Notes: generated by a model not told the origin, from the sequence alone. Shown: positions 3,744 through 29,388, counted from the stretch's first letter. The stretch is 64,000 nucleotides of DNA from Dongia mobilis (GCF_004363235.1 NZ_SNYW01000006.1:620001-684000); one strand, 5' to 3'. A program made the numbers and translations.

Positions 3744-4046
3744 TCATGAATGTGGTGACTTTTCGTCCTGTGAACTGCGGTCGATAGACCGATAGTCCTG
3801 AATGCGGGTGGTTCTGAGGCCGCGCAGGCCATGCCGGTCGATCGACCGTTGCCAGGACAGGAACTCCTCAACCGAGAGGGAGTAGCGCTGGCAAGCTTCT
3901 TCCAAGGAAATTAGTCCTGCACGAACGCCAGCGACGACTTCCGCCTTGCGCCGGATGACCCAGCGTCGTGTGCCGGGCGGCGGCAGATCGTCCAAGCTTT
4001 TCGGCAGATCGGCATCTGCGTCGGTAATGTCCGGTCTCTGCGCCAT
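3744..4046 (-). CDS. sciP: SciP-type CtrA inhibitory protein (DUF1153)
   Basis: SciP is a small helix-turn-helix protein that restrains transcription from CtrA-activated promoters in Caulobacter (family knowledge). The hallmark block is present: RRWVIRRKAEVVAGVRAGL, then SLEEACQRYSLSVEEFLSWQ and HGLRGLRTTRIQDYR. The frame is open from an ATG at 4115, but that codon lacks a Shine-Dalgarno and lies just 7 bp from a CtrA-like box. I prefer the ATG at 4046, with GGATAG upstream; it gives 100 residues, close to the usual size. ATG 4058 is also possible. The gene lies between flgD and fliF on the same strand, inside the cluster it probably controls. Confidence 0.9.
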   Translation of the reverse strand: MAQRPDITDADADLPKSLDDLPPPGTRRWVIRRKAEVVAGVRAGLISLEEACQRYSLSVEEFLSWQRSIDRHGLRGLRTTRIQDYRSIDRSSQDEKSPHS

Positions 4047-4121
4047 GGCTATCCGCATATTTCCGTCGGCTACCGCGCCCGGTTGCCGATCCATGTCCGC
4101 CAATTCATACGCCATGGCCGT

Positions 4122-5005: not shown

Positions 5006-6763
5006 CTAGATCTGCACGTCCACCATGCCGTCGCCGGTCGCCAGCACATCCGTGCGGCCGGCCAGCGGCGTCGGCTCATCCTCGCCCTCGCCAAGGGCGC
5101 CATTGCCACGCGCCGCCTGCTGCCCGCCGTCACTGCCGAATTCCTGGGCAAAGGAGTCACGTTCGCCGCCATGCAGGCTGAAGTTCAAATCGTTCCGGTC
5201 CATCTTCAGCCCGGCCTCTTGCAAGGCGCGTTCCAACGCCCTGCTGTCGCGCTGCAGCAAATCCAGCGTCGCCGGGCGCTCCACCGTTACGCTGGCGCGG
5301 GCGTTGTTTTCCCGGTCGATCTCGAGCTTCACATGGATGCGGCCCAGTTCCGCCGGTGAGAGCTGGAGCGAGATGCGGCCGCCACCCTCGCGGGCGGCTC
5401 GCTGGATGCCAAGCGCCACCTGCTCATGGGCCGGCAGATTCTGCAGGTGCTGGCGCAGATTGGCGACGAAATCCGTCCGCCGCGATGCCGCCCCCTGGGC
5501 GAGATGCAGCTGCCAGCCGGGCAGGCCCGATGACTGGCCGAAGGCCGTATCGAAGGACAGGCCCGGCGGCAGGACCGTGCTCGGCGCCTGGCCAGCCGCG
5601 AGGGGCGAACCGGCAGGAACATTGGCCGCGCCGGCCGGTGAGCCGCTGGCGCCAATCTGGGCCGCATTGCCGGCGGCGCCCTGGCTGGCGGCGCCCTGGC
5701 CGGCGGCCGCACTACGCTGCCGCGCCTCGTGCTGTGCCCCCTGCTGCATTTGGCGAAACATGGCGGCCTGGTCTTCGCTCGGCCTCTGGCCGCGCCTTGA
5801 AAGAAGGCCGGCCTGGGCGGCGGCGTCATCCCAGGAATCGACCGGCAAGACTGTCGGTGTCCCGCCCTCGGCCGATGCCATGCGTCCGGCGGATCTTGGC
5901 GCCGCGGCGATCTCGCCCGGCGCGGCATCCTCAGCCTGTTGCGAACCCGCCGCATCGCCGTCTTCTGCCGCAACCTCGGTATCGGGCAGCGGTTCCCCGG
6001 CAATGTCGCCAGCAAGATCGACCGGCAATCTGCCAGCCAAGCCGGCATCGTCGTCGGCGGCGGCGACTGGTGCCGCAGCTTCGGCAGGGATTGCGGCTGC
6101 GGCGGCTGCCGGTGCCGGCGCCGGCGCCGGTGTACCGGGCTGGGATGGCTGCGGCGTCGGCAGCTGCGCTGCCGCCCACTCGCCGCTGTCACCCATGTCG
6201 GCACCGGAATCCGCCGCGAACGGATCGCCATCCTCCGCCTGGCCCTCTTCGCCTTCGGGCGGCGTGGTGTCGTCCGCTTCCGTGGCCTCGCCTTCGCTCG
6301 CCACGTCGCTGCCGGCTCCGGCCGGCGTTACTTCTTCGTCGGGCTCCGCCGTCTCCGCCGACGCCCGGGTGCCGCGCTCCGTGTCGTCGACGGTGACAGT
6401 CCCGTGTGCCGGCGATCTCTCGCCGGAGGCCGGTACCGCGCCGGTCCGCAAATCAGCCCGGGAATCCGCTCCCGGTGCGCATCGCATCACGCCGCAGCTT
6501 GCCGGGGCGCCGGCGCCCGGGGTTGCAACGGCAGTACCGGCCAATGTCCCAACCGCGCGGTCGCTTGCCAGATAGGGGTTTGCCCGGCTCGGCGCCACCG
6601 GTTGCTGTACCGTGCTGGCCCGCTTGTTCATGATCCCGAACATCAGTTCGGCGAAGCCGCCTCTTTCCGTGCCCGCATTTCCGGAGGCATTGCCGAGGCG
6701 CGGTGCCAGGCCGAAGAACTGGCTGATCTTGCTGCTGTCCATCTGTTCGATCGTCTCTCTCAT
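5006..6763 (-). CDS. fliK: Flagellar hook-length control protein FliK
   Basis: FliK measures the hook and switches export specificity through FlhB. The 585-residue product has a low-complexity Ala/Pro/Glu/Gly-rich ruler region (about residues 50-400). It ends in a conserved Flg_hook domain, with RISLQLSPAELGRIHVKLEI, then LQRDSRALERALQEAGLKMD and a final acidic tail. The ATG at 6763 overlaps the flgL stop (ATGA). An internal ATG at 6742 (MDSSKISQ), with GAGACG upstream, is an alternative start. Ruler length relates to hook length in model species, so the long linker is worth noting beside the enlarged FlgE. Confidence 0.93.
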   Translation of the reverse strand: MRETIEQMDSSKISQFFGLAPRLGNASGNAGTERGGFAELMFGIMNKRASTVQQPVAPSRANPYLASDRAVGTLAGTAVATPGAGAPASCGVMRCAPGADSRADLRTGAVPASGERSPAHGTVTVDDTERGTRASAETAEPDEEVTPAGAGSDVASEGEATEADDTTPPEGEEGQAEDGDPFAADSGADMGDSGEWAAAQLPTPQPSQPGTPAPAPAPAAAAAAIPAEAAAPVAAADDDAGLAGRLPVDLAGDIAGEPLPDTEVAAEDGDAAGSQQAEDAAPGEIAAAPRSAGRMASAEGGTPTVLPVDSWDDAAAQAGLLSRRGQRPSEDQAAMFRQMQQGAQHEARQRSAAAGQGAASQGAAGNAAQIGASGSPAGAANVPAGSPLAAGQAPSTVLPPGLSFDTAFGQSSGLPGWQLHLAQGAASRRTDFVANLRQHLQNLPAHEQVALGIQRAAREGGGRISLQLSPAELGRIHVKLEIDRENNARASVTVERPATLDLLQRDSRALERALQEAGLKMDRNDLNFSLHGGERDSFAQEFGSDGGQQAARGNGALGEGEDEPTPLAGRTDVLATGDGMVDVQI

Positions 6764-9303
6764 GCCAGGAAGTTGACCAGCGACAGCTGGCTGGTGGTGC
6801 CCACGGCGGCGAACACCGCCTGCAGCTGCAGCTGCACACTGGAAAGCTTGGCCGCAACCTCGGCCGCGTCGACCGCCTCGATCTTTGCCGAGCCGTCCTT
6901 GGACAGGTTGATGGTCGTCTGGTGCGACAACAAGGTTGCGCCGATGACCGCGTCGTTGACCGTGTTGTCGGCGTGCAGCGCGCGCAATCCCTCGAGTGCT
7001 TCTCGGGCGAGACCGCGCGCCACCTCGATCTTGTCCTGGTAATTGTCAAGGTCGTTGATGGCCGATTGCGCGTAGCGCAGGGCCAGCTGCAGCTTCTGGA
7101 TCGCGGTCTCGTTGGCCGAGAAGGAACTGCGGATGGTCAGTTGGTCGGCGATCGTCACCCGGCTGCGCTGCCAGGCATTGGCGGAATCACCAGGTTCCTG
7201 GTGTTCGTTGTAGTCCGGGGCAATCGGATTGGGGACCGTGAAGGGCTTGATCACGTTGAGAGTGGTTTCAAGGACCACGCCCGGGGTGGTGGCGGTGATC
7301 GAGAACGAGCCGGAGCCCGTTGCCCCGGCGGTCGCAGTGACTTCCATCGGTGGCGTTGCCGCATTGACCAGCGCGGTCAGATGGATGGCGATGGCATCCA
7401 TGTCCCGCTCGCTGCCATCGGTGACATAGCGTACCGTGCGGCCGTTCACCGTCAGCTCATAGGCATCACCCTTGCGCCCGACCGGGCCGGAGAGGTCGAT
7501 CCGGTCGATCTGCGGCAGCGGGCCTGCCGGAATATTGGCGATGGTGGTCGTTGTCGTCGGCGCCGCCGAGACCTGTCCAACATCGGTGGTCAAGGCCGCC
7601 GTATAGGTGAACGGCGTTCCCGGCGTGTCCGATGTCAGGGTCAGCTTGCCGCTCTTGATCGAGGCGGTTACCCCGATTGCCGCCGCGTTGATGATGCCGA
7701 CGAATTTCTGCGCGACCGACAGCTCGTCGTCGACCGACGTCGTGGTCACGGTGAAGGGGCCAGCCACCGGTGCCGTGAACGTGATCTCGTAGATGTCGCC
7801 GGCATCGCCGAAGGGGCCGTCGAATTCGACCCTTTCCTCCTGGGCCACGGCGACCACCGTGCGTTGGGCAGTCGTCACCTCGGCAGCGTTCTGGACCGCG
7901 GCATGGGCAGTGAAGGCGGTTGCCGAGGAGAGGCGTATCTCGCCATTGCCGGCGAGGCTTGCAGTGACATTGAAGGCCGGCTGGTATTGCGCCAGCTGAT
8001 TGGCCAGCTTCTGCGCGATCTCGTCCAGGCTCTGCTCGTCGCCGGTGGTGCGATAGCTGAGTGTCACCGGCAGCGGATGCGTTGGCGGATCGGTGACTGT
8101 CAGGCTAAAGACCTCGTTGATGATGCCGACCGGACCGGACAGCTGGATGCTGTCGACCTGCGTGGCGCCCAGCGGTACGTTCGGCTGAACCACGTCGACT
8201 GTGGCCGGGGTTGGGTCGGTTCCGGTGATGACCGCGCTGAAGGCCGTGCCGGCGACATCCGCGGTGAGGGTGAGGCCAAAGGCGTCGACATCGCTGACCG
8301 TGACAACGCCGGTCAGCGGCACGTTGGCATTGATCGCGGTGCGCAGCTGGTCGGCGGTTTCCTGGGCCGTCAACGGACCGTTGAGCGTGAATATCTCGGC
8401 GTTGATGGTGAAGGTCTGGGACTGGCCGGCGCCGATGTAATCGGTCGTGATGCGCACCTGCTGGAAGATCGTGCCGGGTGCCAGCTGCTGCAGGGTCGAA
8501 CTGGCGGCAGCATTGGCGCTGCCGGACGGGTCCGGCAGGCGTCGCAAATCGACCACCGGCAGCCGGTCATTGGCCGTGACGCCGCCGAACAGGAAGCGGT
8601 CATTGACCTGCTCGTTGAGCAGCGAGTTGAGATTGGCGAGGGCGCCGTCGACCTGGCCGATGATCGGGGACAGCCGGCTGGCTCGGGTCAATTCCGAGAT
8701 GATAGTGTTCTCGGCACCGCCGGCGACATTGTTGATCGAGGTCGACACCGAATAGGCGTCGCCGGCGACTCGTCCGGTCAGCTTCAGGCTGATGCCGTCG
8801 GCGACCGCCGTGATGCGGGTACCGAAGGCCGCGTTGACCTGGGCGGCGAGGTTCCTGCTCACATCCTCGACGCTGCCCTCGACGCCGGAGGTGACATAGG
8901 TGAACAACTGCCCGTCCACGACCAGTCGATAGACGTCGCCGACGTCGCCGAGATCGCCGTCCAGGGTGATGGTATTCAGCTGCGCCTGCGGCGGCTCGGT
9001 CATCGGGTCGAGAAGTGCCGTGTTCAGATCCGCGGCGATCTTCTCCATGTCGGTGAAGATCCGGTCATAGGCCTTGATGTCGGTCTGCGTCACCTTGACG
9101 GCCTCGATATAGCCCTCGCGCCGCTGGATCTCGGTGCGCAGGCTCAGCAATTGGCTGCCCTGGACGCCGTAATTCACCAGGCTGATCGACTTCTTCTGTG
9201 AACTGAGCTGTTGCGTCAGGTCCGCCAGAGAGGTCTGCAGGTTCTTGAACCCGGCGACATTGCTGAGATAGGTGGCGTAGGTGCTGTATGCGTTCACTGT
9301 CAT
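6760..9303 (-). CDS. flgL: Hook-filament junction protein FlgL with five inserted beta-repeats
   Basis: FlgL (HAP3) joins hook to filament. Flagellin-like helical ends are visible: an N-terminal segment (TSLADLTQQLSSQKKSISLV, then QGSQLLSLRTEIQRREGYIE) and a C-terminal heptad-rich segment (about residues 700-847). At 847 residues it is nearly three times the usual ~300. The extra length is mainly about five imperfect copies of a ~90-residue beta-rich unit, near residues 108-196, 282-370, 381-470, 489-580 and 598-690. Each begins with a phrase like IxLSGPVGxxGDxYxLTV and ends near LTxTxxxPGTPF. The same unit occurs in FlgK and FlgE. The start ATG at 9303 has GAGGTGA upstream. Assignment between FlgL and a flagellin-like protein rests on operon position. 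Confidence 0.9.
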   Translation of the reverse strand: MTVNAYSTYATYLSNVAGFKNLQTSLADLTQQLSSQKKSISLVNYGVQGSQLLSLRTEIQRREGYIEAVKVTQTDIKAYDRIFTDMEKIAADLNTALLDPMTEPPQAQLNTITLDGDLGDVGDVYRLVVDGQLFTYVTSGVEGSVEDVSRNLAAQVNAAFGTRITAVADGISLKLTGRVAGDAYSVSTSINNVAGGAENTIISELTRASRLSPIIGQVDGALANLNSLLNEQVNDRFLFGGVTANDRLPVVDLRRLPDPSGSANAAASSTLQQLAPGTIFQQVRITTDYIGAGQSQTFTINAEIFTLNGPLTAQETADQLRTAINANVPLTGVVTVSDVDAFGLTLTADVAGTAFSAVITGTDPTPATVDVVQPNVPLGATQVDSIQLSGPVGIINEVFSLTVTDPPTHPLPVTLSYRTTGDEQSLDEIAQKLANQLAQYQPAFNVTASLAGNGEIRLSSATAFTAHAAVQNAAEVTTAQRTVVAVAQEERVEFDGPFGDAGDIYEITFTAPVAGPFTVTTTSVDDELSVAQKFVGIINAAAIGVTASIKSGKLTLTSDTPGTPFTYTAALTTDVGQVSAAPTTTTTIANIPAGPLPQIDRIDLSGPVGRKGDAYELTVNGRTVRYVTDGSERDMDAIAIHLTALVNAATPPMEVTATAGATGSGSFSITATTPGVVLETTLNVIKPFTVPNPIAPDYNEHQEPGDSANAWQRSRVTIADQLTIRSSFSANETAIQKLQLALRYAQSAINDLDNYQDKIEVARGLAREALEGLRALHADNTVNDAVIGATLLSHQTTINLSKDGSAKIEAVDAAEVAAKLSSVQLQLQAVFAAVGTTSQLSLVNFLA

Positions 9304-9318
9304 GATTTCACCTCGCCA

Positions 9319-11034
9319 CTAGCGAACCGCTGCCTGCAGCGTATCGAACAGCTGCTGCACCACGGTCATCAAACGGGCGGATGCGGCATAGGCGTTCTGC
9401 AGCACCTGCAGATTGGCGATTTCCTCGTCCAGATTCACCGCGACATCCGCCTGGTAGCGCTGTTCGGTCTGCGTCACGCTTTCGGCGTTGAATTTGCTCT
9501 GGTCCAGGATGAACTTGGCGCCGAGCAGCGAGGTACCTACCATGCCGGTGAAGATGCCCTTGTAGGAAACGCCGGAGAGGGCGATGCCGGCGGCGGTAAA
9601 GGTGCGGTCGGTCGCGTTGAGTGCATTTACCACATCGTTGGCGGCGTTCTTCTTGAGCTGCTGGGTGCCGTCGAGAAGGGCCTGGTTGACCTGGAACGTA
9701 TAGCGGTCCGTGCCGGTGAAGAAGCTGCTGCGCAGTTCCGGCAACTCGCCATTGGCTCGGGACAGGATCGAGAACGGGACGTCGCTGGCATTGGCAACGA
9801 TCTGCAGCGAGGCGACGCCGTTGATCGCGGTCACGCCCAGCGTGGTATCGGTATTGATCCGGGCGGCGAGGCCCGCCGCGATCTGGTCGAGCGAGGTATC
9901 CGTCTCCTGCGCCGTGTAGCTGAAGATCTTGCCGTTGATCTCCACCTCGAAGATGTCACCAGGCCTGAGGTCGCCGGCGAGGAATACGGTCGAGTGCTGG
10001 GCCGAAGCCGGGGTTGCCGCGATCGTGGTCTGGAAGGATGCCTCGATGCGCAGCGAACTGCCGGCCCCGTCATAGGCGGCGCTGAAGGTGGTCGATTGGC
10101 CGATCGTGGTAGTCATCACCGAGACGACCGCATCGAGCTGCGAGCGCATCTTGCGGATGATCTCGGTCGCCGGGTCGGAACTGGCCGGCAATCCCTTGGC
10201 GCTGTTGTCGAGGCGCAGGTCGAGCAGCGCGCGAAGCTTGCCGTCCCGGAACAGCAGGTCGACCGCCTGCGTCGGGTCGTCACTGCGGAAAATGTTGACC
10301 CCGTCATAGGTGAAGCGCGAAGGCGGACCGTCGATCAGGCTGAGGCCGGAGGCGGTGAAGACGGCGATGGCGCCGTTTTCGCGCTCGACCGTCCGCACGT
10401 CGGCGTATTGCGAGATCTGCCGCACGAGAGCATCGCGCTGGTCGATCAGTTCGGTCTGGCCGGCGCTGCCGCTCTGCGAGGAACGCAGGCGCAGATTGAC
10501 CTCGAACAGCTTCTCCAGCAGGCCATTGAAGTCCTCGAGCGATCCCTCGATGTCGGTCTTGATGTCGCGGTCGATGGCATCGACCGCGCCGGCAATCCGG
10601 GCAACCTCGTCGGCCAGCTGGTCGCCGTACTGTATCACCATCTGCTGGGCGGCATCGGAATCCGGCGACGTCTGCAGGTTCTGCCACGCGGTCAGGAACT
10701 GGGTATAGAGCGTGGGCAGGCCGGCCTGGTCGGTACTGGTGCCGAGGACCTGCTGCAACTGCTGCATGTACTTGTTCTGCGCGCTGGTCGTGCCGTCCTT
10801 CGCGATCAGGCTTTCCCATTGCTTGCGCAGGCTGTCGTTGACCGCCGAGGCATAGTTGGCGATGGCCACGCCGCCGACCTGGTTTTCGCCGAGATAGATC
10901 GATTCCCGCGACAGCGACTTCTTGGTGTAATTGGGGTCGTTGGCACGGGCGATGTTGGCCGACAGGACCTGGATGTTGGCCTGATTGACCCGCAGGCTGG
11001 AAATCGCGGCATTGAGGGCGCCGGTCAGTGACAT
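9319..11034 (-). CDS. flgK: Hook-associated protein FlgK with one inserted beta-repeat
   Basis: FlgK (HAP1) is the first junction protein on the hook. The 571-residue product starts with LTGALNAAISSLRVNQANIQ and has the conserved loop ANIARANDPNYTKKS. The C-terminus is EEIANLQVLQNAYAASARLM, as in this family. Residues about 348-425 hold one copy of the beta-repeat shared with FlgL and FlgE (LAGDLRPGDIFEVEINGKIF onward). The gene sits between flgE and flgL with short spacers of 28 and 15 bp. Confidence 0.96.
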   Translation of the reverse strand: MSLTGALNAAISSLRVNQANIQVLSANIARANDPNYTKKSLSRESIYLGENQVGGVAIANYASAVNDSLRKQWESLIAKDGTTSAQNKYMQQLQQVLGTSTDQAGLPTLYTQFLTAWQNLQTSPDSDAAQQMVIQYGDQLADEVARIAGAVDAIDRDIKTDIEGSLEDFNGLLEKLFEVNLRLRSSQSGSAGQTELIDQRDALVRQISQYADVRTVERENGAIAVFTASGLSLIDGPPSRFTYDGVNIFRSDDPTQAVDLLFRDGKLRALLDLRLDNSAKGLPASSDPATEIIRKMRSQLDAVVSVMTTTIGQSTTFSAAYDGAGSSLRIEASFQTTIAATPASAQHSTVFLAGDLRPGDIFEVEINGKIFSYTAQETDTSLDQIAAGLAARINTDTTLGVTAINGVASLQIVANASDVPFSILSRANGELPELRSSFFTGTDRYTFQVNQALLDGTQQLKKNAANDVVNALNATDRTFTAAGIALSGVSYKGIFTGMVGTSLLGAKFILDQSKFNAESVTQTEQRYQADVAVNLDEEIANLQVLQNAYAASARLMTVVQQLFDTLQAAVR

Positions 11035-11062
11035 GGCGGTCTGATCCGTCCTCTAAATCAGG

Positions 11063-13336
11063 TTAACGCTTGATGTTGATGACCTCGGCCAGCATCTCGT
11101 CAGCCGTCGTGATGACGCGGGTATTGGCGGCATAGGATCGTTGCGTCACGATCATCTTCGAGAATTCCTCGGCGATGTCGACGTTCGAACCTTCCACCGC
11201 ACTGGCGCGCAGGCTACCGCCGCCGTTCTCGCCGGCACCGGCAATACGCGCCGAGCCGCTGTCGAAGGTTTCGGTGAAGGCCTGGCCGGTCTCGCGCTTC
11301 AGGCTGTTGGGATCATAGAACTGGGCGAGCGGTATCTTGAAGTAGACCCGGGTATTGCCGTTGTCGTAGTTGAGCTCGACATCGCCGTTGTCACGGATAG
11401 TCAGGTCCTTGAAGATGCCCTGCGGCAGGCCGTCCTGGGTGAAACGGCGGACGTCGATCGTCTCGCCGCCGAACTGCGTGACGCCGACCGTCGTCTGGAA
11501 CTGGCCGAGGTTCAGTTCGATGGTCTGCGGGCCGACGCCGTAATCGACCTGGAAGGTGATGATGGCGTCGTCGCCCTGGCTCTGTGCCGTCGGGGTCGTT
11601 GCGTTGCCGGTAATGTTGTAGGCGTTGCTGAGGCCGACCAGCATGCCGGCCGCCGTGCCGGTGCCGAACTGCACGTCGATGAAGGCATCCGCCGAGCCGT
11701 TGGTGGCGCTTACGGTCGCCGTGAAGGGTGTTCCGGCATCGATCGCCGTCAGCTGGATGGTGCCACCAAGCGCCGTGGCGGTGACGCCAAGGGCGGAATT
11801 GGTATTGATAAGGTTGGCGATGCCCTGGGCTACGTCGTTGAGGCTGGTTTCCGTGCCGTTGGAGACGTAGTTGATCGAAAGCGTGCCCACATTGACGGTC
11901 CAGGTATCGCCGATTTCGCTGGGTCCGACGGTGCCGGCCAAGGTGACCGTGTCGACCTGGGCGGTCGGCAGTCCATTCGGCGTGGTGTTGGCGCTGGAAG
12001 CGCCCAGGAAGTCGGTGTTGGTAACGTTGCCAGAGGTGATCACGGCATCGGTGAAGGCAAAGGCAAAGGTGCCAAGGGGCGCATCGGCATTGATCGAAAG
12101 GGTGTCGCCGTCGACGATGGAGGCGGTCACCAGCGGACCGACGGTGACGTCACCATTGATGGCGGCGATCAGCGCATCGCGCGCCTGGGCCGTGGTGTAG
12201 CCGGCGAGCGGCGCCGTTATCGTGATCGGGTTGCCGTTGATTGTGATGGTCACGTCGTCGCCGGGATTCATGGCACCCGGGAAGTCGACCACGGTCGTCT
12301 GCCCGGAGCCGGTTCCGCCGAGGGTGGCGGTATAGGGCGTGCCTGGATCGTCGGCGGTGACGTCGAAGGTGGTGGCGGTGAGGTTGCCGGCGGTGACCTG
12401 GGCGGCCAGGCCGGGATTGCCGTTGATGGCCGAAACCAGGGCCGCCCCCACCTGGGCCTGGGTATAGCCGCCGACCGGTGCGGTGACGGTGACGGAATTA
12501 GAGCCGATGGTGAAGGAGAGGGTTTGGCCGAAGGCAAGGCCGTCGGCCGGCATGGTAAAGGTGTCGATCTGGGCGACTGCCGGAACATTGGCCGTGGTGT
12601 TGGCGATGGCCATGTTCTGGTCATTGACGCCGACGATGGTACCGGACACCGGGTCCAGCGTGCTGTCAGCGGCGATGATGTCCAGCTGCCAGAGATTGTC
12701 GGCGCGCTTCACCCATTCGAGCGAAATGGTGTGCGGATTGCCGAGCGCGTCATAGACCCGGATGTTGGTGGGCGCCAGCGGCGGCTGCGGGTTCACGACG
12801 GATGAGGCTGGCAGGTTGCCGACGAATTCGAGTTCCGAGGTCGGTTCGGGCGCATCGATCGTCTGGACGATCTGGATCGGTGCCAGGCTGGCGGTGTCGG
12901 GCACGCCGGTATCCTGGTCGACTGCCCAGCCGTTCAGGAAGTAGCCGCCGTTGTTGACCAGATAGCCGTCGCGGTTGACCTCGAAGTCGCCGGCGCGGGT
13001 GTAGTACTGGATCTCGTCGAACAGGGTCTGGTTGGCGTTCTGGATCGTCGGCCGGCTGACGATGAAGAAGCCCTGGCCGCTGATCGCCATGTTCGAGATG
13101 CTTTGGGTCTGATTGACGTTGCCTTGCAGTGCGTTGGCATAGGAGGGCGAGGCGATGACGCCGCCGGGCTGGTGGAGCGCGGCATTCGACACCGTGATCA
13201 GCGTCTCGAAACGGGTGTCGATCTTCTTGTAACCCGTGGTCTGCGAATTGGCGATGTTATCGGAAATATGGCCAAGCGACCGCGACTGCGCGTTGACGCC
13301 GCTGACCGCCGTGAACATGGCCCCGAGAATGCTCAT
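11063..13336 (-). CDS. flgE: Flagellar hook protein FlgE with three inserted beta-repeats
   Basis: FlgE polymerises into the flexible hook. The N-terminus MSILGAMFTAVSGVNAQSRS with DNIANSQTTGYKK, and the C-terminus EEFSKMIVTQRSYAANTRVI with EMLAEVINIKR, are diagnostic. The preferred start is the ATG at 13336 with GAGG 8 bases upstream; a GTG at 13348 would add four residues. The 757-residue length is nearly double a typical hook protein. Residues about 255-550 contain three copies of the beta-rich repeat also found in FlgK and FlgL; the third (VDTVTLAGTVGPSEIGDTWT) is closest to the FlgL copies. The gene heads the hook operon behind a sigma-54-type promoter at 13387-13402. Confidence 0.96.
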   Translation of the reverse strand: MSILGAMFTAVSGVNAQSRSLGHISDNIANSQTTGYKKIDTRFETLITVSNAALHQPGGVIASPSYANALQGNVNQTQSISNMAISGQGFFIVSRPTIQNANQTLFDEIQYYTRAGDFEVNRDGYLVNNGGYFLNGWAVDQDTGVPDTASLAPIQIVQTIDAPEPTSELEFVGNLPASSVVNPQPPLAPTNIRVYDALGNPHTISLEWVKRADNLWQLDIIAADSTLDPVSGTIVGVNDQNMAIANTTANVPAVAQIDTFTMPADGLAFGQTLSFTIGSNSVTVTAPVGGYTQAQVGAALVSAINGNPGLAAQVTAGNLTATTFDVTADDPGTPYTATLGGTGSGQTTVVDFPGAMNPGDDVTITINGNPITITAPLAGYTTAQARDALIAAINGDVTVGPLVTASIVDGDTLSINADAPLGTFAFAFTDAVITSGNVTNTDFLGASSANTTPNGLPTAQVDTVTLAGTVGPSEIGDTWTVNVGTLSINYVSNGTETSLNDVAQGIANLINTNSALGVTATALGGTIQLTAIDAGTPFTATVSATNGSADAFIDVQFGTGTAAGMLVGLSNAYNITGNATTPTAQSQGDDAIITFQVDYGVGPQTIELNLGQFQTTVGVTQFGGETIDVRRFTQDGLPQGIFKDLTIRDNGDVELNYDNGNTRVYFKIPLAQFYDPNSLKRETGQAFTETFDSGSARIAGAGENGGGSLRASAVEGSNVDIAEEFSKMIVTQRSYAANTRVITTADEMLAEVINIKR

Positions 13337-13577: not shown

Positions 13578-14645
13578 ATGGCGATCGGCGGCAGACGGGT
13601 CCTGGTGACCGGTGGTGCGGGATTCATCGGTTCGGCGCTCTGCCGCCGCCTGGTGGCGCGGGAAGGGTGCGAGACGCTCAATTTCGACAAACTGACCTAT
13701 GCCGCCAGTCTCGATTCCCTTGCGCCCGTGGCGCATGACAGGCATTACCGGCTTTCGGTCAGCGACATCTGCGACCGCGCCGCACTCGACGCCGCCTTCG
13801 CCGATTTCCGGCCGGAGATCGTCTTTCACCTGGCGGCAGAAAGCCATGTCGACCGCTCGATCGACGGGCCGGAGGCGTTCATCGAAACCAATGTGGTGGG
13901 TACCCAGCGCCTGCTCGCCGCTGCGCTGCAGTACTGGCGCGGGCTCCCCGTCGCGGCGCGGGACGCGTTCCGCTTCGTCCATGTCTCGACCGACGAGGTT
14001 TATGGCAGCCTGGGCCCGACCGGCTGCTTCACCGAGCAAAGCCCCTATCGGCCGAGTTCACCCTATGCCGCCAGCAAGGCGGCGTCCGACCATCTGGCGC
14101 TGGCCTGGCATGCAACCTACGGCCTGCCCGTCATCGTCAGCAATTGCTCGAACAATTACGGCCCTTGCCAGTTTCCGGAAAAGCTCATCCCGCACATGAT
14201 CATCCGGGCGCTGGCCGGCGATACGCTGCCGGTCTATGGAAGCGGCGAAAACGTGCGCGACTGGCTGCATGTCGAGGACCATGTGGCGGCACTGATCGCT
14301 GTCGCGACGGGCGGCCGCGCGGGCGAGAAATACAATATCGGCGGCCATCAGGAGCGGCGCAACATCGACGTGGTCGGGGCGGTTTGCGATGCGCTCGACC
14401 GGCTGCAGCCGCTCGCCGCCGGCTCCTACCGAGACCGCATCGCCTTCGTCAGCGACCGGCCGGGCCACGATTTCCGCTATGCCATCGATCCGGCCAAGGC
14501 CGAGGCGGAAATCGGCTGGCGGTCGACCATCGGGTTCGATGCCGGCATCGACCTGACCGTGCGCTGGTATCTCGACAACCAGGGCTGGTGGCGCAACATT
14601 CTTTCCGGCGGTTATCGCGCCGAGCGGCTCGGCCATAGCGCGTGA
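13578..14645 (+). CDS. rfbB: dTDP-glucose 4,6-dehydratase (RmlB/RfbB)
   Basis: This enzyme converts dTDP-glucose to dTDP-4-keto-6-deoxyglucose, the branch point to deoxysugars such as rhamnose. The 355-residue protein belongs to the extended SDR family. It has a Rossmann motif VTGGAGFIG, the catalytic STDEVYG and SSPYAASKA (Tyr-x3-Lys), and SNCSNNYGPCQFPEKLIP for substrate binding. The ATG at 13578 has AGGAG upstream. No rmlA, rmlC or rmlD is adjacent. Its place between the hook operon and several transferase genes suggests that it feeds a glycan on the flagellum or cell surface, but that is inference. Confidence 0.93.
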   Translation: MAIGGRRVLVTGGAGFIGSALCRRLVAREGCETLNFDKLTYAASLDSLAPVAHDRHYRLSVSDICDRAALDAAFADFRPEIVFHLAAESHVDRSIDGPEAFIETNVVGTQRLLAAALQYWRGLPVAARDAFRFVHVSTDEVYGSLGPTGCFTEQSPYRPSSPYAASKAASDHLALAWHATYGLPVIVSNCSNNYGPCQFPEKLIPHMIIRALAGDTLPVYGSGENVRDWLHVEDHVAALIAVATGGRAGEKYNIGGHQERRNIDVVGAVCDALDRLQPLAAGSYRDRIAFVSDRPGHDFRYAIDPAKAEAEIGWRSTIGFDAGIDLTVRWYLDNQGWWRNILSGGYRAERLGHSA

Positions 14646-14697
14646 GGCACCGCCGGGCGTCCTGACGCCGTTTACGACAAAGCCGTCGGGGCCGGCA

Positions 14698-15435
14698 CTA
14701 TTTCTCCTCCAGCTTGCCCTTCAGGTCGAAAAACAGGATGTCGCGCTGTTTCTTCGGCCCCTTGACCGGCTCGACGCCGTGGAAGCAGGCAGCCGTCTTC
14801 GGAAAGGACACGACCACATTGGGTGCATAGGGTGCCGTGTAGACATGGTCGAAATCCTCGAAGTCGAGGTGCGGCCCGCCTTCCTGGGTGAAGCGCCGGT
14901 CCTTCGGCACATAAAGCGCGGTGCCGAGCTCCTGCGAGGAATCGTCCTCGGCCAGGTAGAACAGCATGGAAACCAGCTTGGTGATGTTGTCGGTATGGGG
15001 GCCGAGGCTGTAGGTTTCCATGTCGCGCATCAGGAAGGTCTCGTGCCAGACCTTCAGCCCGCGCCCGCCGCCCTTGCCGGTGTCGCGAAAGCGCCCCTCG
15101 ATATAGGGGCGGAACAGGTTGAACACCGCGCCGGAAAACTCGCCGTCGCCCAATGTCTCGAACATGTGGCGCCAGAAATCCCGCTGCGCCGGGGCCAGGT
15201 TGGTCTTGTCGAGATCGCTTGGGAACAGGGAGAGGCGGGCGCGGGAATAGCCCGTGCCGACACGGCCCGTATCCGCCAGGACGGCATATTCCTCATGCGC
15301 CGGCAGGTTGCGCCGCAATTCCTGAAAGAAGCCGGCGGGGAAGACGTCGGTGACATAGATGTGTGCGAAGGGATAGGTCCGGATCTGGGCATTGGCGATC
15401 CGGTAGATGAGGTGGAACTTAACGTCGGAAAACAT
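14698..15435 (-). CDS. 2-oxoglutarate/Fe(II)-dependent oxygenase-like protein
   Basis: Predicted soluble, 245 residues from the ATG at 15435 (MFSDVKFHLIYRIANAQIR). A likely facial triad is visible: His147-x-Asp149 in LGPHTDNITKLVSMLFYL and His219 in TAACFHGVEP. Arg231 follows in KKQRDILFFD and could bind 2-oxoglutarate. This pattern matches prolyl-hydroxylase-like (2OG-FeII_Oxy) proteins often found in capsule or modification loci. The start overlaps the end of the FkbM methyltransferase gene by 17 bp, so the two are co-transcribed. The substrate is unknown; a sugar or a protein side chain is possible. Confidence 0.72.
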   Translation of the reverse strand: MFSDVKFHLIYRIANAQIRTYPFAHIYVTDVFPAGFFQELRRNLPAHEEYAVLADTGRVGTGYSRARLSLFPSDLDKTNLAPAQRDFWRHMFETLGDGEFSGAVFNLFRPYIEGRFRDTGKGGGRGLKVWHETFLMRDMETYSLGPHTDNITKLVSMLFYLAEDDSSQELGTALYVPKDRRFTQEGGPHLDFEDFDHVYTAPYAPNVVVSFPKTAACFHGVEPVKGPKKQRDILFFDLKGKLEEK

Positions 15436-16243
15436 ACTCGCCCACTCCGGTAAAGGCGCCCTCGGTGCGTGCCGCCCGCGCGACCTGGGCGGGATCATAG
15501 CTGAAACCCAGTTCCGACAAATGGTCCAGAATGCCGCGGTGCTCGGCCAGATGCGGGTTGATCTCGATGATCAGCGACTTCACGGCGGGATTGCGCAGCG
15601 TCTCGGCGGCGCCGGCGATCACCTTGTGCTCGAAGCCGTCGACGTCGAGCTTGATGTGGCTGGGGACCGGCATCACGCCATCCGCGATCAGTTGGTCGAT
15701 CCGGGCCGAGAAGCAGCCCTGGATGAAGGGCGATTTGCGCTGCTCCAGCTTGAAATCGACCGATTCGTCGAAACTGTGGCAGGAGCCGCCGATGGTGAAG
15801 TCCGAGAGGTGGATGGTGCTGAACTTGGCCTCGTCCGACAGCGCACAGCAGAAGGCGGTCACCCGCTCCGACAGGCTGTTGCTGACGATGTTCCGGCAGA
15901 GCAGGGCGTAGTTCTGCGATTCGGGCTCGAAGGCGAAGACCCGGGCGTCCCGGATGACGGCGGCGAACACCGTATACATGCCGACATTGGCGCCCACATC
16001 CAGCAGCGTCCCGCCCATCTCGATGGATTCCAGCCACTCGATGGTCGAGGGTTCCTTGGTGAACAGCGTCTGCACCCGCCAGAGCGGAGTCTTGCCCGGC
16101 AGGGCATAGCGCAGCTTCTTGCCCTTGTAGGGAATGCCGATCACCGGCATGCCGGCATCGTATCGCTTCACCGCCTCGATGACGCGCGGGTCGATCTGCA
16201 TATTCGGTCGCCTCGGCTCTGTCTCTGCCAGCATCTGGAGCAT
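15419..16243 (-). CDS. FkbM-family SAM-dependent methyltransferase
   Basis: The 274-residue product has the FkbM-type core: LLDVGANVGMYTVFAA (SAM-binding loop, about residues 80-95), VFAFEPESQNYALLCRNI and SHIKLDVDGFEHKVIAGA. Members methylate hydroxyl groups of sugars or lipids. The ATG at 16243 has GAGG seven bases upstream; an internal ATG at 16201 is less well placed. It is first of a two-gene unit with the oxygenase-like gene. The neighbourhood suggests O-methylation of a flagellar or surface glycan, which cannot be shown from sequence. Confidence 0.88.
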   Translation of the reverse strand: MLQMLAETEPRRPNMQIDPRVIEAVKRYDAGMPVIGIPYKGKKLRYALPGKTPLWRVQTLFTKEPSTIEWLESIEMGGTLLDVGANVGMYTVFAAVIRDARVFAFEPESQNYALLCRNIVSNSLSERVTAFCCALSDEAKFSTIHLSDFTIGGSCHSFDESVDFKLEQRKSPFIQGCFSARIDQLIADGVMPVPSHIKLDVDGFEHKVIAGAAETLRNPAVKSLIIEINPHLAEHRGILDHLSELGFSYDPAQVARAARTEGAFTGVGEYVFRR

Positions 16244-16415
16244 GCCATTACCTCAACCGTAGGGGGGCGTTAACAAATTGTCCAGATTTGGTCAGCATAA
16301 TCCGTGCCATCGGGAATCACGGACATTAAATATTGCCGGGCATTAAATGCCGGGCCGTGGCATGCTTCCTGCTTGGTTATCCGGCAGCCTTGGCACGTCA
16401 GAGATGGAGCGACAG

Positions 16416-16979
16416 ATGGCCAGCCCCAGCGGACAGATCAGCGAAGAATACCGGCGCATGCAGGAGAAATTGCACGAGAACCCCAATTACGGGGTGGCTT
16501 CGGTGCAATACGCCCCCGTTGTCGCCAAGATCATGCAGCAGACCGGGACCACCGAATTGCTGGATTACGGCGCCGGCAAGGGGCGCCTCGGCGAGACCCT
16601 GCGCCAGATCATCTCGACGCCGCTCAAAATCCATCATTACGACCCGGCGCGGCCGGAATGGGCGGCCGAGCCCAGCCCCTGCGGCTTCGTCTGCTGCATC
16701 GACGTGCTGGAGCATATCGAGCCGGATTTCCTGGACAATGTACTGGACCACCTGAAACGCCTGGTGATGAAGCGCGGCTTCTTCACCGTCCATACCGGTC
16801 CGGCCATCAAGATCCTGCCGGACGGCCGCAACGCGCATCTGATCCAGGAGCCGCCCTCCTGGTGGCTGCCGAAATTCATGGAACGCTTCGACCTCACGGT
16901 CTTCCAGAAGATGCCCCAGGGATTCTGGGTCCTGGTGGAGCGCAAGCCGGAAAAGCCGGTCCTGGTCGAGCCGGTCTGA
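16416..16979 (+). CDS. Class I SAM-dependent methyltransferase
   Basis: The product is 187 residues from the ATG at 16416, which has GGAG six bases upstream; longer in-frame starts exist at 16347 and 16404. Motif I is LLDYGAGKGRLGE, and an aspartate-containing motif IV follows as CCIDVLEHIEPDFLDNVLDH. A conserved HLIQEPPSWWLPKF segment lies near the C-terminus. Sequences like this are usually annotated only as methyltransferase-domain proteins. It is divergent from the FkbM gene and ends at a strong terminator. Its substrate is unknown; the neighbourhood points to glycan or flagellar modification. Confidence 0.75.
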   Translation: MASPSGQISEEYRRMQEKLHENPNYGVASVQYAPVVAKIMQQTGTTELLDYGAGKGRLGETLRQIISTPLKIHHYDPARPEWAAEPSPCGFVCCIDVLEHIEPDFLDNVLDHLKRLVMKRGFFTVHTGPAIKILPDGRNAHLIQEPPSWWLPKFMERFDLTVFQKMPQGFWVLVERKPEKPVLVEPV

Positions 16980-17002
16980 GCCGGTCGAGCGCTGCCGGAA
17001 CG

Positions 17003-17033
17003 AAAAAAGGGCCCGGAAATCCGGGCCCTTTTT
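17003..17033. terminator. Bidirectional rho-independent terminator
   Basis: An 8-bp perfect GC stem (GGGCCCGG/CCGGGCCC) with an AAAT loop, flanked by an A-tract on the left and a T-tract on the right. It can terminate both the methyltransferase gene ending at 16979 and the minus-strand GT8-like gene ending at 17053. Confidence 0.9.
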
Positions 17034-17052
17034 GTTGCTGCGGGCGTGGCCC

Positions 17053-17778
17053 TCAGTTGCTGAGGATGGCGTCCTTGTGCAGCTTGGCGACGCGGCCGCC
17101 GCCGGCCGTTTTCGCCGAGTGCACCGAATGCGCCATCAGTTCCTGCCAGCCGCGGGTTTGGTTGGCGGCCTGGTGTTCCGCCTTCCATTCCTCGGTGTAT
17201 TCGCTGCCCGCGGTTTCCGGGAAGATCGGCATGCCCTGGGTGTAATGCACCAGCTTGGCGTCGCTGCGCGGCGGGTCATAGCCGACCAGGTGGTTCCATT
17301 CGCGCGGCAGGTCACCGACCAGTTCCTCCGGCAGCCAGTCGAGGCCGTGCGGCGCCTTGCACTGCTTCGGATCCTCGACATAGTCCGGGGTGAGGATGCG
17401 GTTCGCCGGATGGCCGCAATTGAACAGGATCATCGAGGCCCATTCGAACCGCTTCACGTTCTTCGAGACCATGGCGGCGTAGCGGTCGTCGGTCAGGGCA
17501 AACAGCTCGGCCAGATCGGCAAGGCACAGATAGTCGATGTCCATGAACATCGCCCAGCCCTGATAGCCGCCGAGCCAGGGGGTGAGAAAGCGGCTGAAGG
17601 TGAAGGGGGTCAGGCCCTTGCGGGTCATCGGCAGGGTGGGGAGAACCAGTGGCGTGATCGCAACCGGCTTGGAGCAGCGGCGCAGGATGCTGAACTGCAG
17701 CACGTTGTAGGCGACCGCCTGGCGGTGGTCATAGCCGATGAAGATGCGCAGGGGCTGCTCGTAGGTCTGTCCGGACAT
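17053..17778 (-). CDS. GT8-like glycosyltransferase
   Basis: The 241-residue product starts with LRIFIGYDHRQAVAYNVLQF and contains FSRFLTPWLGGYQGWAMFMD followed by IDYLCLADLAELF. The DxD (Asp-Ile-Asp) in that block is the metal/nucleotide-sugar site of GT-A enzymes. The arrangement resembles family 8 (LPS galactosyl/glucosyltransferase-like) but the protein is short. The start ATG at 17778 has GGAG upstream; an upstream TTG at 17802 is unlikely. It is the last gene after flbT-flaF-unknown, so it may add sugar to a flagellar component. Confidence 0.7.
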   Translation of the reverse strand: MSGQTYEQPLRIFIGYDHRQAVAYNVLQFSILRRCSKPVAITPLVLPTLPMTRKGLTPFTFSRFLTPWLGGYQGWAMFMDIDYLCLADLAELFALTDDRYAAMVSKNVKRFEWASMILFNCGHPANRILTPDYVEDPKQCKAPHGLDWLPEELVGDLPREWNHLVGYDPPRSDAKLVHYTQGMPIFPETAGSEYTEEWKAEHQAANQTRGWQELMAHSVHSAKTAGGGRVAKLHKDAILSN

Positions 17779-17798
17779 CGCCGAAACTCCGTTATCTC

Positions 17799-18602
17799 TC
17801 AAAACAACGCGTCGTACAGGGCACCGTTCAGCTTGCTGGTGGCCGAGGTGCCGATCGCCGGCAGGTTGGCGATGAAGGAATAGCTGGAACTGAGGCTGCT
17901 GATCAACGCGTCGGTGCCGGCGCCCAGGCTGGTCGAAAAGCCGAACTGGTCCTGGTTGGGGTTATAGCCCTGTTCGATCGTGTCGTAATCGTTGACATAG
18001 GTGCCCTGGGTCAACTGGACCGCATACTGGATGTTGTTCTTCATGTTGGGATCGGCCCCGGGCATGCGCGACAGGCGCATGATGTAGTCGCCCTGCTTCA
18101 TTTCCAGCCTGCCTTCCCGCAGGACGGTGTAGCGGGCATAGGCGTCGCCGGCCTTGGGATCACTGTCGACCAGCAGCTGGCCGCTCGATTTGGAAAAGAC
18201 CTGGACGCGGAGCTGGTCCTTGTAGGTCGGGTCCGCGATCAGGGTGCCGAGCTTGGTTGCCGCCGTGGTGTTGATGCGAAACTTGAACACATCGACGGCG
18301 TCAGACTGCGACAGCGCGCTGAACAGGTTGAGGCGCGAATTGTTCTTCCGCAGCACGCCGATGTCGCGTGCCGTCATGTTGTTGTCAATCCGGACGTCGT
18401 AGCTGGTCTTCTCGAACTCCTGCACTTGGCCGGATTGGGACAGCTTGATCTGGTCGATGATCTCGGTGATCTCGTCCGTGATGCCGGACAGGTCCGGCCC
18501 GCTGGTCGTCGCCGCGTTATTCGCGCCCGAGGTGGTGTTGAACAGCGACGAGGTGTCGCTGGTCAGCAATCCGGTCGGGGCTGCGGTGATTGCGGTCGAC
18601 AT
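17799..18602 (-). CDS. Unrecognised protein of the flaF/flbT operon
   Basis: The 267-residue product is not a family I recognise. It has no signal peptide or membrane segment. The first ~50 residues are Ser/Thr/Ala-rich and disordered-looking. A helical part follows (ITDEITEIIDQIKLSQSGQV). Then comes a beta-rich part (about residues 100-200) with DVFKFRINTTAATKLGTLIA and a closing segment GRLEMKQGDYIMRLSRMPGA. That alternation weakly resembles a PPC-type beta-sandwich. The C-terminal 60 residues are Ser/Gly-rich. It lies 25 bp after flaF and overlaps the upstream side of the GT8-like gene, so a role with the flagellum is likely but undefined. Confidence 0.6.
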   Translation of the reverse strand: MSTAITAAPTGLLTSDTSSLFNTTSGANNAATTSGPDLSGITDEITEIIDQIKLSQSGQVQEFEKTSYDVRIDNNMTARDIGVLRKNNSRLNLFSALSQSDAVDVFKFRINTTAATKLGTLIADPTYKDQLRVQVFSKSSGQLLVDSDPKAGDAYARYTVLREGRLEMKQGDYIMRLSRMPGADPNMKNNIQYAVQLTQGTYVNDYDTIEQGYNPNQDQFGFSTSLGAGTDALISSLSSSYSFIANLPAIGTSATSKLNGALYDALF

Positions 18603-18627: not shown

Positions 18628-19077
18628 TCAGGCGGTCACGTTCATGACGGGCCTGGCCTGGCTGCCCACCAAGGGGGCTTCCGTCGATCGCGGCGCCGCC
18701 GGTTGCGCGGAATCCGCCGGCGGGGTCATCGACAGGCCCTCGGCAATGGCGCGGTTGATATCGATGATCGGCTGGATCTTGCTGCCGTCGAGATCGGCCA
18801 GGCGCTGCATGATGTGGCGATCCATCAGGACCGACAGGGCGAGGACGTTGTCCCTGATTTCCTTGGGCAATTCGTTGCCGGGGTCGATCAGCGAGGCCTG
18901 GAAGATCGACCAGAGCCGCTGATTGAGAATGAGGGCCGCGCGCAGGCTCTCGCCGGCGTCATCGATGATCCGCGCGGCCGCCATCAGGCGGCGCGACGCC
19001 TCGGCCAGCGCCCAGGCCTCGGTGCTGCGCGGGTCCATATCCTTCGGCTGACTGGCGTAACCGACCGCTGCCTTCAT
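18628..19077 (-). CDS. flaF: Flagellar biosynthesis regulator FlaF
   Basis: FlaF works with FlbT in alphaproteobacteria to couple flagellin synthesis to assembly; in Caulobacter it is needed for flagellin export. The 149-residue product has the FlaF core TEAWALAEASRRLMAAARII and ALILNQRLWSIFQASLIDPG, followed by NELPKEIRDNVLALSVLMDR. A Pro/Ala-rich tail of about 30 residues is extra. It is located 72 bp after flbT, with a hairpin between them. Confidence 0.93.
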   Translation of the reverse strand: MKAAVGYASQPKDMDPRSTEAWALAEASRRLMAAARIIDDAGESLRAALILNQRLWSIFQASLIDPGNELPKEIRDNVLALSVLMDRHIMQRLADLDGSKIQPIIDINRAIAEGLSMTPPADSAQPAAPRSTEAPLVGSQARPVMNVTA

Positions 19078-19149: not shown

Positions 19150-19506
19150 CTAGAAGAGCTTCGCCGTCGCTTTGAGGGCCCGGTAATAGTCCCCAGAATG
19201 CACTAACCGTGCCACCTCGGTGAGCTCGGTCAGGGAATCCGGCCGGTGACGCATGGTTTCCGCCAGGATGATCTCGAATTTCTCAAGATTTCCAGGCGCA
19301 TCTTCCGGGAAGAGGTAGATCAACTGAATGATCAGATAGAGCTTCTTCTCGATCGTATCGGCCTTTTCTTCCTTCATGACCTCGCGGCCGCGCAGGAAAT
19401 TGGCCTTGTTGAAGAGATAGAAACTTCCTGGTTCCTCGCCCCGTCCGATGACGGCACCGTTAACAATTACCTTTTCCCCGGGTCGCAGGGTGAACTTGAG
19501 TGGCAA
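19150..19506 (-). CDS. flbT: Flagellin translation regulator FlbT
   Basis: FlbT represses flagellin expression by binding the 5' leader of flagellin mRNA in Caulobacter when hook assembly is blocked. The 118-residue product is typical. It starts MPLKFTLRPGEKVIVNGAVI, then NFLRGREVMKEEKADTIEKK and LYLIIQLIYLFPEDAPGNLE. It is downstream of flagellin 1 on the same strand and upstream of flaF. Confidence 0.97.
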   Translation of the reverse strand: MPLKFTLRPGEKVIVNGAVIGRGEEPGSFYLFNKANFLRGREVMKEEKADTIEKKLYLIIQLIYLFPEDAPGNLEKFEIILAETMRHRPDSLTELTEVARLVHSGDYYRALKATAKLF

Positions 19507-19682: not shown

Positions 19683-21929
19683 TTAGAACAACCGCAGGAT
19701 GGCCTGCTGCGCCTGGTTGGCCAGAGAAAGCGAGATCGTACCCAACTGCTGCCTGGTCTGCAGCGTCAGGATGTTCGCGCCCTCTTCGTTCTGGTCAGCC
19801 GCGGTCAGCTTGTTGGCACCCTCAATCAGCACGTTCGAGAACTCCGCGGTATAGGTTTCTCGAGTCTGGATGATGTTGAGGTTGGTACTGAGGTTCGACG
19901 ATGCGGCACGCAGTGTCAGCTTTGCAGCATCCAACTGCCTGATCGCATTGTCGATGTCAGCCCGGTCGTTCCAGCCGTTCTGGGCGAAGTCGAGCTTCAA
20001 TCCCTGACCGTTGGTCTGAACGTTCTGACTGATCACCGTGACGTTGCTGGTGTTGTTCTCGTTGAGCTGCACCTGCAGGTTGTTGGCGTCACTGGCATCG
20101 GTCACCTGCTGGGTCTTGATGGTGGCCGTATCGCCGGTATTGGCTTTGCGGACATCGAACAAGACTTCGCGTTCGGCGGTGAATTCGCCGCGGACCTTGT
20201 AGTTGATCTCCTGCCCGGTTTCGACGAGTGTCGTCGCCGAAAGCGAGAAGGCAAAGACCGCGCCGCTGTTCAGGCCGCCCTGGACGCTGAAGGTCAGCGT
20301 GGACGCCGCCGCCAGCGAGAAGCCGGACAGCGTGATGGTCACCGACGCCGTACCGCCGAACTCGTCGGTGTACTGGAAGGTGGCCGAGGTCGAGGTCAGG
20401 TCGGTGACGGCGATGTTGATGCTGGTCACCGTATTGTCGGTAAAGCTGCTGGCGCTCGTGATGCCGATGAGGCCAACATTGATACCGTTGGTTTCGATCG
20501 TGTTGCTGACTTCGGTCAGGTCGGCCGAGGCAGCGGAGGCCACGAACTTCAGCTCGCTGACGTTGAACGCCACCGACGCTTCCGCATCACCCGAGATCAG
20601 GCCGGCGAAGGCGAATTCGCGGCTGGTCTGGCCGACGCTGAAGGCGAGCGACACGGAGGTGCCCGATTCGGTGTCGGTTGCGGTGATGTTGAACTGCGTG
20701 AAGTTGCCGGTCTCGTAGTCGAACGAGGTGCCGACCACGGCAAAGGAAACCGTGGTATTGGCCGAGACCGTCGAAACGCTCGCCACCTTGATTTCGCTGA
20801 TGGCGGTCGCACCGGTACCATAGGCGAGGCCGACCTTGGCGTCGTACTTCGACGATTGCAGCAGGGCGCGCTCGTCGACGGAGACACGGGCCGTGCCGGA
20901 ATCGAACGCGAACGCGTTCTCGCCATTGGCCAGCTTGCTCTGGCCCAGAAGGTTGAGGCCATCACGGGTGATGACTTCGCCGTTCTGGTTGGTCACGATC
21001 AGCTGCAGATCGACGTTCTTCTCGATCACCGAGGTGCCGACGCCGGCGGTATCCGGCACGTCCTCGATGGCGTCGAAATCGACGTCGAAGCTGACATTGG
21101 TGCCCGTGGTGAAGCTGTGCGCGAAGCGCAGCGTGACACCATTGGACTGGGCGATCTGCCAATCCAGCGACGTGAAGGTCTGGGTGACCGTCTCGTTGCC
21201 TTCGGTGACCGTGAAGGTCTTGTCCTTGCCCTGGCCGCCCGTCAGCTTGATCGAAACCGAATCGTAGTTGAAGCGGGTGGTCGAAGCAAAGCCGCTGATC
21301 TCGAGGTTCGAGATGCCGCGGTCGGTCTGCGCGCGGGCGATGTCCGCGGTCGAGCCGGAGACGGTGCCCTCGCCGGTGACCGAGATCTTGTACTCGTCCG
21401 CCGAGACGACGTTGGTGACGCGGGCGCCACCGATGCCGGGCAGGGCGTTGACCAAGGCCTTCGAGGAAGCCGTGGCGTCGAGCGACAGACCGGAACCGAC
21501 CAGCAGGTTCTTGCCCTGGTAGCCCGAATCGGCCGCGAGGCGGTCGATCTGGCGCAGCAGCGAGTTGTACTGGTTGGCAAGGTTGTTGCGCAGTGCGACG
21601 GACGAAGCGTCGGTGCCCAACGAGCCGAGAGCCTGGGTGGTCAGACCGCGGGCCTGTTCAACCAGTTCCTCGATCTTGGTGATGCCGGTATCGGCAGACT
21701 TGATCGTGCTGATCGCCTGGCCGAGGCCGTCCTTGAGGCCGTTCAGATCGCCCGCGCGCTGGGTCAGGCCCTTGGCGGCAAAGAAGCTTGCCGGGCCGTC
21801 GAGTGCGCTGTTGATCTTGTTGCCGGTCGCCAGGCGGAGCTGGGTGCGCTCCAGGCTGACGGTGGTCTGTTGCAGCAGCAGGAGGTTGCTGCGGATGCCA
21901 GCGGTAAGCTGGACGTCGTTGGTTGCCAT
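19683..21929 (-). CDS. fliC: Giant flagellin (first copy)
   Basis: Filament subunit of 748 residues, against a usual 270-500. The polymerising ends are intact: LTAGIRSNLLLLQQTTVSLE with RLATGNKINSALDGPASFFA at the N-terminus, and ADQNEEGANILTLQTRQQLG with SLANQAQQAILRLF at the C-terminus. The central region (about residues 180-600) is Ser/Thr/Val-rich beta sequence, with TEGNETVTQTFTSLDW and DEFGGTASVTITLSGFSLAA; this would be the surface-exposed D2/D3 part. The start ATG at 21929 has AGGGAG upstream, and a sigma-54-type promoter lies at 22012-22027. Its closest relative in the window is the second flagellin. Confidence 0.96.
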   Translation of the reverse strand: MATNDVQLTAGIRSNLLLLQQTTVSLERTQLRLATGNKINSALDGPASFFAAKGLTQRAGDLNGLKDGLGQAISTIKSADTGITKIEELVEQARGLTTQALGSLGTDASSVALRNNLANQYNSLLRQIDRLAADSGYQGKNLLVGSGLSLDATASSKALVNALPGIGGARVTNVVSADEYKISVTGEGTVSGSTADIARAQTDRGISNLEISGFASTTRFNYDSVSIKLTGGQGKDKTFTVTEGNETVTQTFTSLDWQIAQSNGVTLRFAHSFTTGTNVSFDVDFDAIEDVPDTAGVGTSVIEKNVDLQLIVTNQNGEVITRDGLNLLGQSKLANGENAFAFDSGTARVSVDERALLQSSKYDAKVGLAYGTGATAISEIKVASVSTVSANTTVSFAVVGTSFDYETGNFTQFNITATDTESGTSVSLAFSVGQTSREFAFAGLISGDAEASVAFNVSELKFVASAASADLTEVSNTIETNGINVGLIGITSASSFTDNTVTSINIAVTDLTSTSATFQYTDEFGGTASVTITLSGFSLAAASTLTFSVQGGLNSGAVFAFSLSATTLVETGQEINYKVRGEFTAEREVLFDVRKANTGDTATIKTQQVTDASDANNLQVQLNENNTSNVTVISQNVQTNGQGLKLDFAQNGWNDRADIDNAIRQLDAAKLTLRAASSNLSTNLNIIQTRETYTAEFSNVLIEGANKLTAADQNEEGANILTLQTRQQLGTISLSLANQAQQAILRLF

Positions 21930-29288: not shown

Positions 29289-29372
29289 CTGGGTTCTCCC
29301 GAATGTGTTTGCGACGCAGGCGGCCTTTTTGACCGCCCAGGCGGCGATATCGCCACGTCTCGGAAGCACTAA

Positions 29373-29388
29373 TGCAGGGCGCGTGCCA
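29373..29388 (-). promoter_or_regulatory. Sigma-54-type promoter of flagellin 2
   Basis: Minus strand TGGCACG-CGCC-CTGCA: the -24 half is a perfect consensus and the -12 half has the invariant GC. It is 85 bp upstream of the flagellin start, nearly the same as for flagellin 1 (83 bp). Confidence 0.75.

Follow-up and report, generated by a model that had tools for sequence, protein, structure and literature searches.

The flgE-flgK-flgL locus

The window, by which is meant the whole 64-kb stretch of Dongia mobilis DNA that was analysed, carries three consecutive minus-strand genes, flgE, flgK and flgL, in that order along the strand (Table 1). FlgE passes the FlgEFG_subfam model with 253 bits against a cut-off of 70.25, and FlgK passes the flgK_ends model with 206.6 bits against a cut-off of 170.75. 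FlgL scores 31.7 bits with its family model, below the cut-off of 127.2, and its identity was therefore taken from the ends of the protein and the gene order. Pfam matches to FlgE_D2, Flg_bbr_C and FlgK_D1 mark conserved core domains that flank a series of inserted units. The core of FlgE is canonical, and its three inserted units follow the FlgE_D2 match.

The region on the other side of flgE contains genes for a sugar-nucleotide dehydratase and two methyltransferases, a weak 2OG-oxygenase match, and two ORFs without a Pfam match between flgE and flaF. Look-alikes of these two ORFs lie upstream of flgE in Dongia deserti (L077, 304-1914), together with glycosyltransferase- and methyltransferase-like genes. 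Judged from its gene content, the region 13578-18602 is possibly a flagellar modification cluster. Two genes for large flagellins are also present, the first beside flaF and flbT, and a short ORF elsewhere in the window may resemble DUF1153/SciP-type regulators.

Table 1. Features of the window and positions of the nine units (FlgE residues numbered with M = 1)
Feature	Position	Strand	Remarks
flgE, hook protein	11063..13336	-	757 aa, start MSILGAMFTAVSG; FlgE_D2 189-267, Flg_bbr_C 711-754
flgK, first junction protein	9319..11034	-	571 aa; TIGR02492 8.5e-61
flgL, second junction protein	6760..9303	-	847 aa; TIGR02550 9.7e-8, under cut-off; conserved across the family
FlgE unit 1	12299..12574	-	aa 255-346; profile match and predicted fold
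FlgE unit 2	12017..12298	-	aa 347-440; best match to sheath domain II (8kee, Z 13.9)
FlgE unit 3	11672..11962	-	aa 459-555; profile match and predicted fold
FlgK unit	9733..10002	-	aa 345-434; between FlgK_D1 (90-313) and the C-terminal region; profile match
FlgL unit 1	8707..8985	-	aa 107-199; separate insert in the N-terminal part
FlgL unit 2	8179..8472	-	aa 278-375; profile match and predicted fold
FlgL unit 3	7864..8163	-	aa 381-480; weak against FlgE profile (0.02)
FlgL unit 4	7555..7845	-	aa 487-583; profile match and predicted fold
FlgL unit 5	7240..7515	-	aa 597-688; profile match and predicted fold
Short ORF	3744-4115		possible likeness to DUF1153/SciP-type regulators
Putative modification genes	13578-16979		dehydratase, two methyltransferases (one FkbM-type), weak 2OG-oxygenase match
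ORF without Pfam match	17053-17802
ORF without Pfam match	17799-18602
FlaF	18628-19077		beside flagellin 19683-21929
FlbT	19150-19506		beside flagellin 19683-21929
Flagellin	19683-21929		748 aa
Flagellin	27057-29390		open frame, 778 aa

A repeated module in three axial proteins

A sequence-only reading of this DNA had claimed imperfect units of about 90 residues, three in FlgE, one in FlgK and about five in FlgL. The counts proved to be exactly three, one and five, and each unit spans 90-100 residues. Profiles built from the units of one protein were searched against the other proteins, with 6000 composition-preserving shuffled decoys for each profile. The FlgL-only profile was found to match FlgE at 1.3e-17 and FlgK at 1.5e-12, the FlgE-only profile matched FlgL at 2.1e-22 and FlgK at 8e-15, and the combined FlgL and FlgE profile matched FlgK at 8.7e-18. 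The top decoy for each profile reached 2.4e-5 to 4.8e-4, so that the similarity proposed across the three proteins is significant and far beyond that of shuffled sequences. Scored singly with the profile of the other protein, FlgE unit 2 (0.0039) and FlgL unit 3 (0.02) were the weakest, and these two still show the common strand/helix order in AlphaFold predictions. In the 4.19 Mb genome only these nine units are convincing profile matches, the tenth match having an E of 0.56. Overall, the nine units are homologous copies of one diverged beta-rich module, and their pairwise identity of 9-34% indicates that they are old. It is scarcely credible that alanine/threonine-rich beta segments came to resemble one another without common descent: identity is low and composition is biased, as convergence would have it, but the composition-preserving shuffles fall short of the observed scores, the motif is ordered over its whole length, and FlgE and FlgL have a common strand/helix order.

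The inserts had also been held to explain the large sizes of the proteins. In FlgE and FlgL they make up much of the added length, but FlgK shows no apparent enlargement at 571 aa. Neither of the two flagellins of the window has a significant unit match (best E 0.047); by sequence, the surface proposed for the units thus stops short of the filament.

Predicted fold and structural relatives

AlphaFold models of FlgE and FlgL were built with nine orthologues per alignment, and the FlgK unit was assigned by sequence. All five FlgL units are predicted to have the order b-b-b-a-b-b-b, with pLDDT mostly 70-90. FlgE units 1-3 have essentially the same predicted order, with pLDDT mostly 60-87 and a weak last strand in unit 2. 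The FlgE model is poor outside the units (core pLDDT <50), and so informs on the fold of the units rather than on their orientation relative to the core. The units of FlgE and FlgL thus have one predicted fold in common, as the sequence-only reading anticipated, and not a set of unrelated ones.

Structural relatives were taken from per-domain alignments; Foldseek searches against viral models and the PDB gave many long, poor tandem Ig-like alignments. FlgE unit 2 aligned with domain II of a cyanophage sheath protein (8kee) at 1.6 A over 93 aa, with 26% identity and the Z score given in Table 1, and FlgL unit 2 aligned with the same domain with a Z of 13.3. Both models also matched an outer domain of the Stenotrophomonas maltophilia flagellin (S. 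maltophilia, 9atl; Z 9.3 for FlgE and 10.3 for FlgL), domain 2 of GbpA (Z 9.7 and 9.3, respectively), other phage sheaths and a T7-type tail domain. A match to FliD (5h5v, Z 7-8) is not decisive by itself. The FlgL and FlgK D2 structures of other bacteria were absent among the matches listed, an absence without weight for or against kinship. The fold is therefore known already from flagellins and phage tail sheaths, and it is its use across three axial proteins that is unusually systematic.

How does the unit relate to known domains? The nearest named motif is Flagellin_IN (PF07196), which has a hydrophobic strand, a short helix ending in IN, a V-T-A-S strand and an L-x-L-T strand, and which is likewise inserted within flagellar axial proteins. 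The unit has a longer helix and, in addition, a strand at its opening and another at its close. In hhalign, a profile made from 91 unit segments in ten genomes aligned with one made from 30 Flagellin_IN segments of the class to which these genomes belong, with a score of 36.3 and a probability of 91.8, against a maximum of 14.4 in 200 column-permuted controls. The Pfam cut-off for Flagellin_IN was not reached (9.2 bits for FlgL against 22.7; best single unit E 0.0083), and the organism's own genome has no Flagellin_IN match at E up to 10. Domain II of phage tail sheaths (PF17481; PDB 8kee, 9cba, 8foy) resembles the unit in fold over its whole length. The PF17481 model was absent from the listed matches of all nine units at E up to 10, and tblastn of the FlgK unit against phages gave no match. 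In phages this domain is appended to a contractile sheath protein, whereas here it stands in tandem in hook and junction proteins; the unit-bearing proteins are FlgE, FlgK and FlgL and not contractile sheath proteins. The unit is thus kin to the Flagellin_IN motif but longer, and it folds like domain II of phage tail sheaths; the module itself is not new.

The outer domains of flagellins (9atl, 4nx9) and FliD (5h5v) are alike in fold class and in their outer position in an axial protein, but here one domain family serves the hook, FlgK and FlgL together. Domain 2 of GbpA (2xwx, 8gul) has the same fold, with Z 9.2-9.7 over about 90 residues, but belongs to a secreted chitin-binding protein without a flagellar role. 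The D2 domains of FlgL from Xanthomonas campestris (X. campestris) and FlgK from Burkholderia pseudomallei (B. pseudomallei) have a common beta-sandwich (PMC6155364) and provide a precedent for one outer domain in both junction proteins, although that sandwich has 5+3 strands, occurs in a single copy and does not extend to FlgE. This precedent and the kinship with the widespread Flagellin_IN tell against the premise that such proteins normally have only their helical termini in common.

Distribution and history of the copies

Exactly nine unit matches, placed 5+1+3 in FlgL, FlgK and FlgE, are carried by 10 of the 17 family genomes (G000-G016). The other seven are without units; a good FlgK is present in five of them (G007, G008, G010, G011 and G014), with weak matches in G002 and none in G004. 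A contig profile search with the FlgL family alignment found eight relatives, including Dongia deserti and an uncultured Dongia (Dongiaceae); the same search with FlgL alone found nothing. In one carrier (G012; L045, 1026-3362), one unit is apparently nested inside another at residues 266-459 of the FlgE frame, where profile positions 1-64 are followed by a whole unit and then by positions 59-85.

In trees, the sequences of each unit position from three genera make up a clade of their own, and most of these clades have starred support. The 5+1+3 arrangement is therefore older than these genera, and the copies have diverged independently from the time of the carriers' common ancestor. Thus, the duplication is ancient and the arrangement is fixed. 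FlgL unit 2 is grouped with FlgE units 1-2 by one split at 96% SH-aLRT, but a single clade for each protein is not rejected in AU tests (p 0.085 and 0.109), so that ancient copying between the genes is suggested only. The sequence-only reading had named repeat copying or conversion among adjacent genes as the likely origin; of this, ancient copying stands as possible from the sequences, and recent or ongoing conversion does not stand. Ongoing gene conversion that homogenises the units would draw on the adjacency of the genes and on a 59-nt stretch, 75% identical, at the starts of FlgE units 1 and 3. The units nevertheless cluster by position across genera and not by genome, and long DNA repeats were not found, on which grounds this highly improbable explanation was rejected.

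In the class, 23 of 385 sampled genomes were found to have unit matches in a profile search, and selected matching loci were read further and classified by Pfam or by likeness to the ends of the window proteins. In another family (f51), FlgE bears four to five units, FlgL two to three and a flagellin one. Elsewhere in the class there are flagellins with one to five units, a FlgE with a single unit (L146) and an Ig/cadherin-like protein of 1786 residues with a unit match. In one flagellin frame of 1033 residues (L143, 1274-4372), five units lie between typical flagellin termini. The unit profile also matches four ORFs of about 490 aa at 4e-5 to 5e-9; the one of them that was tested (L151) encodes a phage tail sheath, and its unit match falls inside PF17481. 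A tree of units across families (90 columns) resolves only a minority of the deep forks.

A proposed role at the hook and junction

What could the units do? The reading that we favour, with a probability of roughly 60%, is that they are independently folding outer (D2/D3-type) modules that would provide the hook and the rings of FlgK and FlgL with one kind of outer surface, most likely reinforcing the hook and junction by lateral contacts. The b-b-b-a-b-b-b modules, which are inserted into the hook protein and the two junction proteins of a single flagellar system in the Dongia family, would serve as outer domains and, after export and assembly, would face outward, a placement suggested by the insertion sites and by the architecture of solved flagella, in which FlgK and FlgL expose their D2 domains (PMC12221982). 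The hook and the two rings would thereby gain one continuous kind of outer surface. This surface would most likely add lateral contacts between neighbouring subunits and so reinforce the structure, with adhesion as a secondary possibility. By analogy, the outer domain of X. campestris FlgL was modelled as touching its neighbour through a D2-D1' contact, and reinforcement of the junction was proposed (PMC6155364); Campylobacter FlgK is thought to be adapted to a hook protein that carries additional outer domains (PMC5691160). Stiffening, adhesion and neutral bulk are alike compatible with the present evidence.

The units could instead be mainly binding modules, with which the hook and junction would attach to polysaccharide, to surfaces or to another cell-surface protein, as with GbpA domain 2 or flagellin p5. 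Besides the fold in common with GbpA domain 2, this draws on the observations that GbpA domains 2 and 3 are needed to bind the V. cholerae surface and that domain 2 has been likened to the p5 beta-domain of flagellin (PMC3257281); an aid to adhesion has also been proposed for sheath add-on domains (PMC9230969). A common fold demonstrates no function, however, and the area of the hook and junction is small relative to that of the filament, and no units are detectable in the flagellins of this organism. We regard binding as the main function as unlikely.

A role as putative glycan carriers, modified by the sugar- and methyl-transfer genes beside flgE, is distinctly unlikely. Such genes do adjoin flgE here and in D. 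deserti, and the serine plus threonine content of the units is 16-25%, but this is near the level of the whole proteins (17-19%), and the flagellins lie in the same cluster. Flagellins are the more usual targets of glycans.

The proposed outer layer may also belong to a particular type of flagellum. Three of the carriers (G001, G003 and G006) have a second, unit-free FlgK elsewhere in the genome. Among the 17 family genomes, FliD_C is present in these three and in four non-carriers, and it was not found in any of the seven, D. mobilis included, whose only clear FlgK bears the unit. This pattern fits, but does not prove, a unit-bearing flagellum without a FliD cap, as one family was sampled and offers little independent replication. 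A fuller scheme, possible but on balance doubtful, is that one duplicated module with the sheath-domain-II fold, fixed as 5+1+3 and exchanged between adjacent axial genes in the ancestor, clads the hook and both junction rings as a matched layer that spans the hook-FlgK-FlgL boundaries, the flagellum being of a type whose genomes have no detectable FliD cap gene.

Significance

The outer domains of different axial flagellar proteins can derive from one duplicated module. Flagellar proteins and phage tail sheaths have this module in common, by fold and, via intermediates, by sequence. Flagellin_IN, a Pfam motif of 55 positions, becomes linked to a complete domain of about 90 residues. With their fixed copy number and diverging sequence, the units of this family offer a natural test of whether matched outer domains matter mechanically across the hook, FlgK and FlgL.
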